44,451 nucleotides of DNA, from NCBI GenBank assembly GCA_022709735.1, contig JAKLIG010000001.1, positions 84,135 through 128,585 on the forward strand. Direction: 5' to 3'. This document shows, piece by piece, positions 4,232 to 31,755 of the stretch. The notes beneath the pieces were generated by a model, which had not been told where the DNA came from, did no database searches, and was given only the letters and a program-made list of their open reading frames with translations. The translations under genes and the position numbers were made by a program. This stretch comes from Patescibacteria group bacterium. GTDB lineage: Bacteria > Patescibacteriota > Minisyncoccia > Moranbacterales > UBA2206. Position 1 is the stretch's first letter. The number at the start of each line of letters is the position of its first letter.

Positions 4232-4945
4232 ATGGAAAATAATTTTGAAAATATTCCGCTTCATGTAGCGATTATCCCTGACGGCAATCGGCGCTGGGCG
4301 AAAAACAAAGGACTTAATCCCTGGGAGGGGCACGAAGCCGGCGCTAAAAATTTAGAAAAAATTATTCAAACCGCCCTCAAAAAAGGCGTGAAATGTTTGT
4401 CGCTTTGGGGATCTTCCATGGATAATCTTTTGAAACGCCCAATAGCTGAAAAAAAAGCGCTACTTGAGATTTATAAAAAATATTTCAAGAGGCTTCTCGA
4501 GGGAAAAGAAATCCACGAAAACGAAGCTAGAGTCAATGTGATTGGTCGCTGGGAAGAACAATTTCCGGAATCATTGAAAAGCATAATACGAGAAGCAATC
4601 GAAAAAACCAAGCATTATGAAAAAAGAATGCTTAATTTTATGCTGGCGTATAGCGGAACGGACGACATGCTTCAGGCAGTTTATAAAATTAATAATGCTT
4701 TTGGAAAAGATATGGAAATAACGCCGGAAATGTTGAAAGAAAATCTTATGACGGCTGAACTTCCGCCAGTGGATTTTATGATTCGAACCGGCGGAGAACC
4801 GCATAATTCAAACGGATTTCTGATGTGGGACAGCGCTGACGCTCAATTGTATTTTTCTTTGGAAAATTTTCCGGATTTTGGCGAAGAAAAATTTGAAGAA
4901 GCGCTTCTAGAATATGCCCAGAGAAAAAGAAGATTTGGAGAGTAA
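4232..4945 (+). CDS. uppS: Cis-prenyltransferase, undecaprenyl diphosphate synthase family
   Basis: The 237-residue protein has the UppS fold signature: IPDGNRRWA near residues 15-23 (with the Mg-binding Asp 17), a C-terminal IRTGGE segment, and PDFGEEKFEEAL...RRFG at the end. The family makes the C55 lipid carrier used for wall polymers. Several conserved positions differ. The usual STENW segment reads GSSMDN, the Arg of the GExRxSNF motif is His (GEPHNSNGF), and the Glu of the usual AELYF motif, a Mg ligand in the E. coli enzyme, is Gln (AQLYF). It is therefore a divergent member and its chain length or activity may differ. It lies downstream of the trans-prenyl synthase. Confidence 0.85.
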   Translation: MENNFENIPLHVAIIPDGNRRWAKNKGLNPWEGHEAGAKNLEKIIQTALKKGVKCLSLWGSSMDNLLKRPIAEKKALLEIYKKYFKRLLEGKEIHENEARVNVIGRWEEQFPESLKSIIREAIEKTKHYEKRMLNFMLAYSGTDDMLQAVYKINNAFGKDMEITPEMLKENLMTAELPPVDFMIRTGGEPHNSNGFLMWDSADAQLYFSLENFPDFGEEKFEEALLEYAQRKRRFGE

Positions 4946-5068
4946 ATCATTTTAACATGTTAGCATTTTAACATTTTGGCAAAGATTAATTTAATTATTT
5001 TAATTTAAATATATTTGAATGTATTGGCATGTTTAAATGTTAATATGTTTAAATGTTAGTATGATTTT
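4945..5068. repeat. AT-rich intergenic palindrome (AACATTTAAACAT word family)
   Basis: The left arm (about 4945-4980) and the reverse complement of the right arm (about 5018-5068) both read as AATCAT followed by reiterated TTAACAT/TTTAACAT words. The element fills the whole gap between uppS and trxA and touches both genes. Confidence 0.65.
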
Positions 5069-6411: not shown

Positions 6412-6456
6412 GAGCGATTCGAATGTTTCGAATATGCATTCGAATGTATCGAATGT
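6412..6456. repeat. Left inverted-repeat arm of the GxxExxY element
   Basis: The arm starts GAGCGATTCGAATGTTTCGAA and repeats the CGAATG word. Its reverse partner is at 6857-6900 with about three-quarters identity by eye; a closely related arm pair without a gene lies at 18215-18300. Confidence 0.75.
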
Positions 6457-6466
6457 AAAAAATAAA

Positions 6467-6886
6467 ATGGTTTTAGTAAAAAACAAAAATATATATTATC
6501 CAGAATTATCTTATGAAATTACGGGTTTATTATTTAAAACACATAATGAATTAGGGAGGTTTAAAACGGAAAGGCAATATGGTGATTTTTTTGAAGAATT
6601 ACTTAAGAGTAATAGATACAACTATTGCAGAGAAATTAATTTAAAAAATATTTTTAAAGATTGTATTGATGGAAATATACCTGATTTTGTTCTAGAAAAT
6701 AAAATAATAATTGATTTTAAAGCAAAAAAATTTATTACTAAGGAAGATTATTTTCAGATGGTTCGTTATTTAGATGTTGCAGATCTGCCTCTAGGAATAA
6801 TAGTTAATTTTCGACATACTTATTTAAAGCCTAAAAGAATTTTAAATAAAAAATTTCATTCGAATAATTCGAGTGTTCATTCGTAA
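6467..6886 (+). CDS. GxxExxY protein, PD-(D/E)XK nuclease superfamily
   Basis: The start is taken at ATG 6467 (139 residues). An in-frame ATG at 6434 lies inside the repeat arm and would add a repeat-encoded N-terminus. The family signature is visible: YYPELSYEITG at 10-20, THNELGRFKTERQY at 25-38 (the eponymous Glu 35 and Tyr 38), then PDFVL (Asp 73) and IIDFKAK (Asp 83, Lys 85), which fit a PD-(D/E)XK core, and LPLGIIVNF at 107-115. The family's function is not settled; it is often linked to insertion sequences in rRNA and other loci. The last codons (HSNNSSVHS) are read from the right repeat arm. Codon use is more AT-rich than in its neighbours, which fits a mobile gene. Confidence 0.85.
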   Translation: MVLVKNKNIYYPELSYEITGLLFKTHNELGRFKTERQYGDFFEELLKSNRYNYCREINLKNIFKDCIDGNIPDFVLENKIIIDFKAKKFITKEDYFQMVRYLDVADLPLGIIVNFRHTYLKPKRILNKKFHSNNSSVHS

Positions 6887-6900
6887 ATTCGAGTCGCTTT
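6857..6900. repeat. Right inverted-repeat arm of the GxxExxY element
   Basis: The arm reads CATTCGAATAATTCGAGTG and ends GAGTCGCTTTAAT. It is almost identical to the right half of the gene-less element at 18258-18300 (a few mismatches), and it overlaps the nuclease stop codon. Confidence 0.8.
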
Positions 6901-6903
6901 AAT

Positions 6904-18215: not shown

Positions 18216-18300
18216 GCGACCCGAATGACTCGAATTTTCATTCGAATGACTCGAATTCATTCGAATAATTCGGATGTCCATTCGTAAATTAGAGTCGCTT
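18215..18300. repeat. Gene-less copy of the GxxExxY-type palindromic element
   Basis: The left half (GGCGACCCGAATGACTCGAAT, 18215-about 18257) and right half (CATTCGAATAATTCGGATG to GAGTCGCTT, 18258-18300) are inverted with respect to each other. The right half matches the right arm at 6857-6900 with only a few differences. The element fills the rpsU-yqeY gap and starts at the rpsU stop. Confidence 0.8.
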
Positions 18301-30184: not shown

Positions 30185-30238
30185 TATACAATGTCCTCCT
30201 TTTTTTTGTTCGTTAGCTTAATTGCTAATGAACTAAGC

Positions 30239-30267
30239 ATAATATCATAAAAAATATTAAAAGTCAA
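30239..30267 (-). promoter_or_regulatory. Promoter of the small gene 29990-30184
   Basis: On the minus strand TTGACT (30267-30262), a 17-base spacer and TATTAT (30244-30239). The leader of about 50 bases carries a stable hairpin just before the Shine-Dalgarno. Confidence 0.75.
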
Positions 30268-30273
30268 GTCGGC

Positions 30274-31755
30274 ATGACCAAATCAAAAATCTTTTTCATT
30301 CTTTCCTTATTCTTTATCGGAGGCGTGGCAGTGGCTTCTTTTTATTATCCAAAAATATTAAGTTCGAATTCAATTTATTTATTGGTTGTTTTGGCGCTTA
30401 TAACTCTAGTGGTTTTTTGGAGCAACAAAAAGAGCGTTATTTTTAGTCTTGCTTTTTTATTTTTTCTTCTTGGAATGTTTTTAGTTTCCGGAAAACTCGA
30501 GAAAATTAAAAATCTTAGCGAAGAAGAAAAGAATTTTTCGAGCGAAGTTATGATTGCCAAAGAACCAGTGATCAAAGATAAAATCCAAACACTAGTTCTT
30601 GAACCTCTAACCCAGACATCGAATGTCCATAATGGACATTCGATGTCCACGCTGTTTTTGCTGAACGCGAATGTTTATGAAGAATATAAATATGGCGAAG
30701 TTTTGAAAATAAATTGCGAGCTTCAAAGAATAAAAAATTTTGATAATAGTTTTGATTATCGGATGTATCTCGGTAAAGACGGAATTTTTTATGAATGTAA
30801 AAAGCCAGAGATTGAAAGATTAAATAAAAACGAAGGAAATGGAATATATTTAACACTGCTTAAAATAAAAAATAAATTCGAAGAAAATATCAACAAACTT
30901 ATTCCGGCACCGGAATCAGGACTCTTGATCGGACTGATTTTAGGCGGGAGTGATCAGTTATCAAAAAATATTAAGGATAATTTTTCGCGCACCGGCATGA
31001 CTCACATTGTGGCAGTTTCCGGCTACAATGTGACAATAATCGCCGAATATTTGATGATTCTTGGCATATTTTTAGGACTTTGGAGGCGTCAGGCTTTTTG
31101 GTTTGCGGTCACAGGCATAATTCTTTTTGTGATTATTACCGGTCTTAGCGCTTCAGCTGTTAGAGCGGGAATAATGGGAATACTTTTAATTTGGGCGATG
31201 AAAAACGGGCGATTGGCCAATTCGGAAAACGCTATTTTGTTTTCCGCTGGTGCAATGCTTCTATCTAATCCATTACTTCTAAGATGGGATATTGGATTTC
31301 AACTCTCATTTTTAGCGACAATCGGAATAGTTTATTTTTATCCAATCGCAGAAAATTATCTAATCAAGAATCATAAAGCTTTTGGAATAACGGAAATTCT
31401 TTTTCTTTCAATTTCAGCGCAAATTTTTGTTCTTCCAATCATTATGTTTAATTTTGGAACATTATCTTTGATTTCGCTTCTGGCGAATATATTAATTCTG
31501 CCAATTATCCCATTCACAATGCTTCTGGGTTTTGTGTCGGCACTTTTTGGCTTTATTTTTGAACCAGTCGCAATTATTTTTTCTTGGTTAGCGTATCTTC
31601 CGTTAAAATATGAAACTCTCATAATAAATTATTTAGGTTCTCTCAAATATGCTTCGGTTGAAATGAAAATTACATGGATTGGAGTGGCAGTTTGGTATAT
31701 AATTTTGGTAGGAATTATAATAATAGTGAAGAATAAAAATAAGGAAGAACTTTAA
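30274..31755 (+). CDS. comEC: ComEC/Rec2 competence protein, membrane part
   Basis: The 493-residue membrane protein carries the DUF4131/OB-like N-terminal region after two helices, then the Competence domain: GLILGGSDQLSKNIKDNFSR, TGMTHIVAVSGYNVTII, and about eight further membrane helices. ComEC forms the channel for single-stranded DNA during uptake. The metallo-beta-lactamase domain that usually forms its C-terminus is absent; it is encoded by the next gene but one ORF later (31886-32752). Residues about 114-125 (TSNVHNGHSMST region) derive from an in-frame palindrome (30615-30647). Confidence 0.92.
   Translation: MTKSKIFFILSLFFIGGVAVASFYYPKILSSNSIYLLVVLALITLVVFWSNKKSVIFSLAFLFFLLGMFLVSGKLEKIKNLSEEEKNFSSEVMIAKEPVIKDKIQTLVLEPLTQTSNVHNGHSMSTLFLLNANVYEEYKYGEVLKINCELQRIKNFDNSFDYRMYLGKDGIFYECKKPEIERLNKNEGNGIYLTLLKIKNKFEENINKLIPAPESGLLIGLILGGSDQLSKNIKDNFSRTGMTHIVAVSGYNVTIIAEYLMILGIFLGLWRRQAFWFAVTGIILFVIITGLSASAVRAGIMGILLIWAMKNGRLANSENAILFSAGAMLLSNPLLLRWDIGFQLSFLATIGIVYFYPIAENYLIKNHKAFGITEILFLSISAQIFVLPIIMFNFGTLSLISLLANILILPIIPFTMLLGFVSALFGFIFEPVAIIFSWLAYLPLKYETLIINYLGSLKYASVEMKITWIGVAVWYIILVGIIIIVKNKNKEEL
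30615..30647. repeat. Palindrome inserted in frame in comEC
   Basis: GACATCGAATGTCCA (30615-30629), spacer TAA, and TGGACATTCGATGTC (30633-30647) are perfect inverted repeats. The codons stay in frame. Confidence 0.85.

Follow-up and report, generated by a model that had tools for sequence, protein, structure and literature searches.

A GxxExxY nuclease gene and the palindrome that encloses it very probably constitute one mobile unit, which lies between the trxB and malic-enzyme genes in a window of 44,451 nucleotides (the whole stretch of DNA analyzed here) from a Patescibacteria group bacterium. The unit is fairly probably a small transposase-free element, in which a palindrome of tandem 5-6-nt words carries a PD-(D/E)XK (GxxExxY) gene at its dyad and is driven by that nuclease. 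Its parts are as follows.

6414..6897, + strand: whole mobile unit, 484 bp, from GCGA to TCGC, with its ends set by the 83-bp gene-less copies
6412..6456, + strand: left arm, with CGAA words at 6420, 6429, 6441, and 6450 (spacing 9/12/9)
6467..6886, + strand: GxxExxY PD-(D/E)XK nuclease gene, 139 aa, recognized by PF13366, TIGR04256, conserved columns, and an AlphaFold model
6857..6900, - strand: right arm, inverted, with words spaced 8/12/9 and the nuclease gene stop codon within it

Profile searches with the gene product returned PF13366 with an E value of 4.5e-19 (69.4 bits; curated cut-off, 22) and TIGR04256 GxxExxY with an E value of 1.9e-18 (66.9 bits; cut-off, 35). The nuclease core (E, D, D/E-x-K, Q) is conserved in the GxxExxY alignments, and the residues D73, D83, K85, and Q97 are present in the window protein, which belongs to the GxxExxY/PDDEXK_3 family. 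The AlphaFold model was confident (pLDDT, 88.7). A PDB sequence search gave a sole, weak match, to phage T7 endonuclease I, a junction-resolving enzyme (E value, 0.014), and a fold search of the model against the PDB gave nothing below 0.001, with weak neighbors among PD-(D/E)XK exonucleases and resolvases; Cas4, lambda exonuclease, and a Holliday junction resolvase ranked among the best. Since the sequence match was weak and no fold match fell below 0.001, we do not claim that the window nuclease is a junction resolvase. When a viral library was searched with the nuclease, the best named match was the Halogranum tailed virus 1 nuclease. Relatives of the query were found in 8 of 72,556 plasmids and in one virus, and with so few of them neither plasmids nor phages look like a main carrier of the gene.

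The gene likely starts at ATG 6467 rather than at ATG 6434, because its closest relative (L081) begins MTLVKNKNIYYP, like MVLVKNKNIYYP. The alternative ATG 6434 falls within the left arm, and the stop codon (6884-6886) falls within the right arm; therefore, only the C terminus clearly runs into an arm. An earlier note on this DNA had both ends of the reading frame running into the arms, which clearly held for the C terminus alone, given the likely start at 6467.

Each arm of the window element carries four CGAA words, at spacings of 9/12/9 or 8/12/9. Alignment of the left arm (6412-6456) with the reverse complement of the right arm (6857-6903) yielded 37 identical columns out of 47 (79%) and a score of 38, compared with a maximum of 27 in 100 shuffles. 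The trxB stop codon (6411) and the malic-enzyme ATG (6904) bracket the unit, whose palindrome ends are exact (GCGA at 6414 and TCGC at 6897), so that the arms form terminal inverted repeats in the sense used for insertion sequences and MITEs. The GC content was 21.7% in the insert, 40.5% in trxB, and 38.7% in the malic-enzyme gene. Among the open reading frames between the arms there was no transposase and no second gene, the PDDEXK_3 gene being the sole gene in the unit. Together with the profile matches, these results confirmed what the earlier note had read from the letters, namely, a GxxExxY gene between inverted arms about three-quarters identical, in an insert more AT-rich than its neighbors and free of a transposase.

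In three relatives of the same family (G009, G010, and G012; loci L101, L102, and L103), trxB directly abuts the malic-enzyme gene, which bore out the idea that orthologous loci could lack the whole segment. Congener G006 has a RAYT gene between GGACATC palindromes in this gap. RAYT-like genes at L092 730-1404 (G006) and L099 1459-2103 (G008) adjoin the malic-enzyme gene and have GGACATC or TTAGACAT palindromes inside and beside them. A palindrome with RAYT/REP-type words like those of L092, GACATCGAATGTCC..GGACATTCGATGTCC, also occurs at 30620-30655 of the window, in frame within a membrane-protein gene (ORF 30232-31752, ComEC-like by eye).

The palindrome also occurs without the gene. In genome G000, to which the window belongs, ATTCGAATG occurs 24 times, compared with 2 occurrences of the reversed control word, and its sites read out as an 83-bp palindrome, GCGACTCTAATTTACGAATGAACACTCGAAT..ATTCGAGTCGC. 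The model search located some 16 complete copies without the gene, and several half copies, in this ~1-Mb genome of a Moranbacteria relative, the genome-wide counts being those returned by searches. One of these copies lies in the window.

18216..18298, - strand: gene-less copy, 83 bp, between two genes (R1 model match G000:C1:102350-102432, 90.6 bits)

The two halves of the 83-bp palindrome are unequal, with CGAA-type words spaced 8/12/9 in one half and 9/12/9 in its counterpart. The window element has the 8/12/9 register in its right arm and the 9/12/9 register in its left arm; thus, apart from the nuclease gene at its dyad, it is an ordinary copy. Hardly any shuffled sequences fold as well as the gene-less copies, and these copies have a common centre, size, and unequal halves; given this common centre, they appear to multiply as gene-less units rather than to arise as independent deletions. 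The flanking bases, which the earlier note had suggested comparing, gave no consistent target-site duplication: the mean flank match of 33 gene-less copies was 3.09 nt, versus 2.93 nt when shuffled (p 0.18), and the resemblance of ATTAAAATGA to TTTAATATGA beside the window copy may be coincidental. At L016 1459-1570 (G000:C8:31100-31211), a third type of palindrome, CCTGCCTGCCGGCAGGCAGG, lies within a gene-less copy and interrupts it, as a case of nested insertions.

Inverted arms proved to be a common setting of GxxExxY genes. Flanking arms beat all shuffles at 53 of the 65 GxxExxY loci in the order and at 54 of 80 drawn from all genomes. In a common window, 111 of 139 GxxExxY loci had arms, versus 11 of 274 control blocks shifted by 800 bases (median scores, 38 versus 19; p 2e-48), so that the arrangement seen in our window recurs elsewhere, as the earlier note had proposed to check. 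Loci with arms are spread over many bacterial phyla, and many of those without arms are genes within longer reading frames.

The arm words vary by GxxExxY subfamily (CTGATT, CACGGATT, TACTAAT, CCGAATTA, CTACAAAA, and others). At loci with unrelated flanks, arm similarity increased with protein identity (rho 0.34; equalled in 0 of 300 permutations), and proteins 75-88% identical were found with unrelated flanks. In gene-less copies, CGAA is preceded by T or C in G000 (78 of 97), by G or A in G004 and G005, and mostly by A in G023, and the resident genes (L001, L073/L074, and L089) have arms with the same preference as these copies. Word-array matches to CTACAAAA numbered 15 and 20 in the gene-bearing congeners (G003 and G006) versus 1 to 4 where the gene is missing; for TACTAAT, the figures were 12 to 22 with the gene and 4 to 9 without it. 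G004 has ~11 RCGAAT gene-less copies and no cognate gene in its assembly; therefore, copies can outlive the gene or do without it.

A second gene family shares this architecture. PF05635 (23S rRNA IVP) genes (L241-L270 and L317-L320) lie in word arms (AACATG, TAGCTT, and AATTTTCAATT) of the same design as those of GxxExxY genes, 23 of 30 scoring above shuffles. The CATTTTAACATGTTAG word type found in the arms around the PF05635 four-helix-bundle gene of relative G005 (L255) is present in the window as well.

4944..5067, no strand assigned: gene-less AT-rich palindrome of CATTTTAACATGTTAG words, related but different, between uppS and trx

Since PF05635 genes do not encode nucleases, the palindrome may move by something common to both families, possibly a host process acting on every such palindrome, and this is the chief doubt about the nuclease-driven model. 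An alternative that we judge unlikely is that the palindromes owe their mobility to the host or to other machinery (replication slippage, HUH/RAYT enzymes, or RNase III-linked processes), with the nuclease gene as cargo in a safe intergenic niche. The four-helix-bundle genes in same-design arms would agree with it, as would the RAYT gene in the trxB-malic gap of G006 and the orphan gene-less copies in G004. However, each gene subfamily has words of its own, which accompany the gene at unrelated sites, the copy number of two word families is highest where the gene is present, and the RAYT words (GGACATC) are unlike those of GxxExxY elements, all of which speaks against this alternative.

Exchange of the element between species was detected at two sites. 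At pheS-pheT (L066/L067), 1.7% of the sites in the element differ, compared with 16.6% in the 600-bp flanks (p 2e-20), and upstream of frr (L070/L071), the element is 3.3% and the flanks are 22.0% divergent (p 2e-25). In both pairs, divergence steps up at the outer arm ends with no co-conversion of the flanks, and the non-coding arms are conserved as much as the gene. Divergence at fourfold sites in these exchanged pairs was 0.05-0.15 in the gene versus 0.29-0.51 in neighboring DNA. These homogenized pairs represent few sites in one genus only, and the same-site invasion that they display, as expected of a homing element, is seen in relatives rather than for the window copy. Copies in the L050/L071 pair diverge like their flanks, and by this sequence comparison the pair looks vertically inherited. 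The claim that gene and repeat travel as one is upheld both by the co-variation of the arms with the protein and by exchange edges that coincide with the arm ends. The gene-less copies, the word specificity of the subfamilies, the in-frame insertions, and the spread over phyla go beyond what the earlier note could read from the letters.

The same gaps are empty in other congeners (pheS-pheT in G000 and G002; frr in G004) or are occupied by palindromes that lack a gene and belong to other families (G003 at pheS-pheT; G000, G001, and G003 at frr). Thus, a single gap across congeners may be empty, contain a gene-bearing element, or contain a gene-less copy from either of two families. Another recurrent insertion site is seen at L063 and L068 versus L077-L080 and L082, where flanks homologous on both sides enclose two GxxExxY subfamilies (~28% identical) with different words in different genomes.

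Elements that occupy the same site in different species and have diverged little are what would be expected of a pure homing endonuclease that cuts fixed, element-free sites and is copied in by repair, with dispersal to new sites rare and gene-less copies representing decayed elements. We consider this very improbable, since similar elements occur at unrelated sites, different families occupy the same site, the flanks are not co-converted, and the single centre and size of the gene-less copies indicate multiplication as such rather than independent decay.

Insertions were also found within genes. In G001, G003, and G006, the nuclease gene with CGCGGA-word arms lies in frame within lepA, in a loop before LNLIDTPGHVDF that is empty or carries short repeat inserts in other genomes, and G022 has a copy of the element in frame within recG. 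In-frame insertion, as in Rickettsia palindromic elements, is thus seen in lepA and recG of relatives, and the window copy is intergenic. Insert-like stretches of similar words also occur in frame elsewhere in LepA and in PheS.

That the arms serve a resident, non-mobile gene as terminators or RNA processing hairpins, with selection keeping them alike, has next to no likelihood: the palindromes do fold well, and similar palindromic rRNA intervening sequences are processed by RNase III (PMC4990558), but this reading is already contradicted by the empty sites and sharp exchange boundaries, and against it also stand the same element at unrelated loci, the finding that fourfold sites and non-coding arms have diverged little between species with flanks 13-22% different, and the in-frame insertions in lepA and recG.

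For the nuclease-driven element that we favor, the nuclease itself is plausibly responsible for the spread, and we infer that it drives movement by acting on the words or on a cruciform. It would bind the cognate words of the palindrome and act on the latter, perhaps as a hairpin or cruciform during replication. The resulting break or nick would allow the element, with or without the gene, to be copied wherever an insertion is tolerated, for instance after the stop codon of one gene and before the start of the next, or in frame within a protein loop. On this view, copies without the gene would be non-autonomous passengers that depend on the nuclease in trans, and they might also be acceptors, in that an acceptor cut at its dyad and repaired from a gene-bearing copy through the arms would gain the gene with sharp edges. 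A broader proposal, which we put forward tentatively and at a little under even chances, is that GxxExxY elements are a distinct, bacteria-wide, transposase-free class, whose nuclease reads a lineage-specific word code, spreads itself and gene-less copies in trans, and enters essential genes in frame, with PF05635 and RAYT genes using parallel palindromes in the same gaps.

Among known systems, REPtrons consist of REP/REPIN palindromes with a RAYT/TnpA-REP HUH endonuclease (PMC8266576, PMC3116915). As in REPtrons, few enzyme genes are bounded by palindromes and many gene-less palindromes occupy intergenic gaps, enzyme and repeat co-vary, and no ordinary transposase is involved. Unlike in REPtrons, the GxxExxY enzyme has a PD-(D/E)XK rather than an HUH fold and does not have the defining HUH Y1 (TnpA-REP) character, and its palindrome is a long tandem-word array (4+4) of ~83 bp that enters lepA and recG in frame. 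As the RAYT element in the trxB-malic gap of G006 is a real one, the REPtron type and the GxxExxY type coexist. Terminal inverted repeats are shared with insertion sequences and MITEs, whereas a transposase and a target duplication are absent from the GxxExxY element. Rickettsia palindromic elements are palindromes that insert in frame in protein-coding genes; GxxExxY elements, in contrast, can carry a nuclease gene and are mostly intergenic. The 23S rRNA intervening sequences hold a small S23/four-helix-bundle ORF (PF05635) in an inverted-repeat stem and have been described as selfish (PMC4990558). GxxExxY elements resemble them in having a small ORF in an inverted-repeat stem, and the PF05635 genes of relatives lie in word arms of the same design, but the GxxExxY protein fold is unrelated. 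An rRNA intron or intervening-sequence reading was set aside, with no Rfam match at nine GxxExxY loci, including the window locus. In Beggiatoaceae, TAACTGA heptamers form intergenic tandem arrays of short words, for which a repeat-binding protein was suggested as possibly being the mobile element (PMC4679880); unlike in the GxxExxY element, these repeats are direct rather than palindromic and have no linked nuclease.

In the open-access literature, papers naming the GxxExxY family (TIGR04256/PF13366) describe no flanking word palindromes, gene-less copies, or mobility; no published description of the palindrome element was found there, nor any of the function of GxxExxY genes, common as these are. 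The GxxExxY gene and its palindrome thus look like a mobile element that has gone unnoticed so far. If GxxExxY genes drive word palindromes, a large set of unexplained short intergenic repeats in bacteria would be accounted for, and a REPtron-like system would be seen to operate on an unrelated nuclease fold. This would also open a direct route to testing the origin of in-frame palindromic inserts, and the switch between YCGAAT and RCGAAT words in sister species would provide a ready-made test of specificity.
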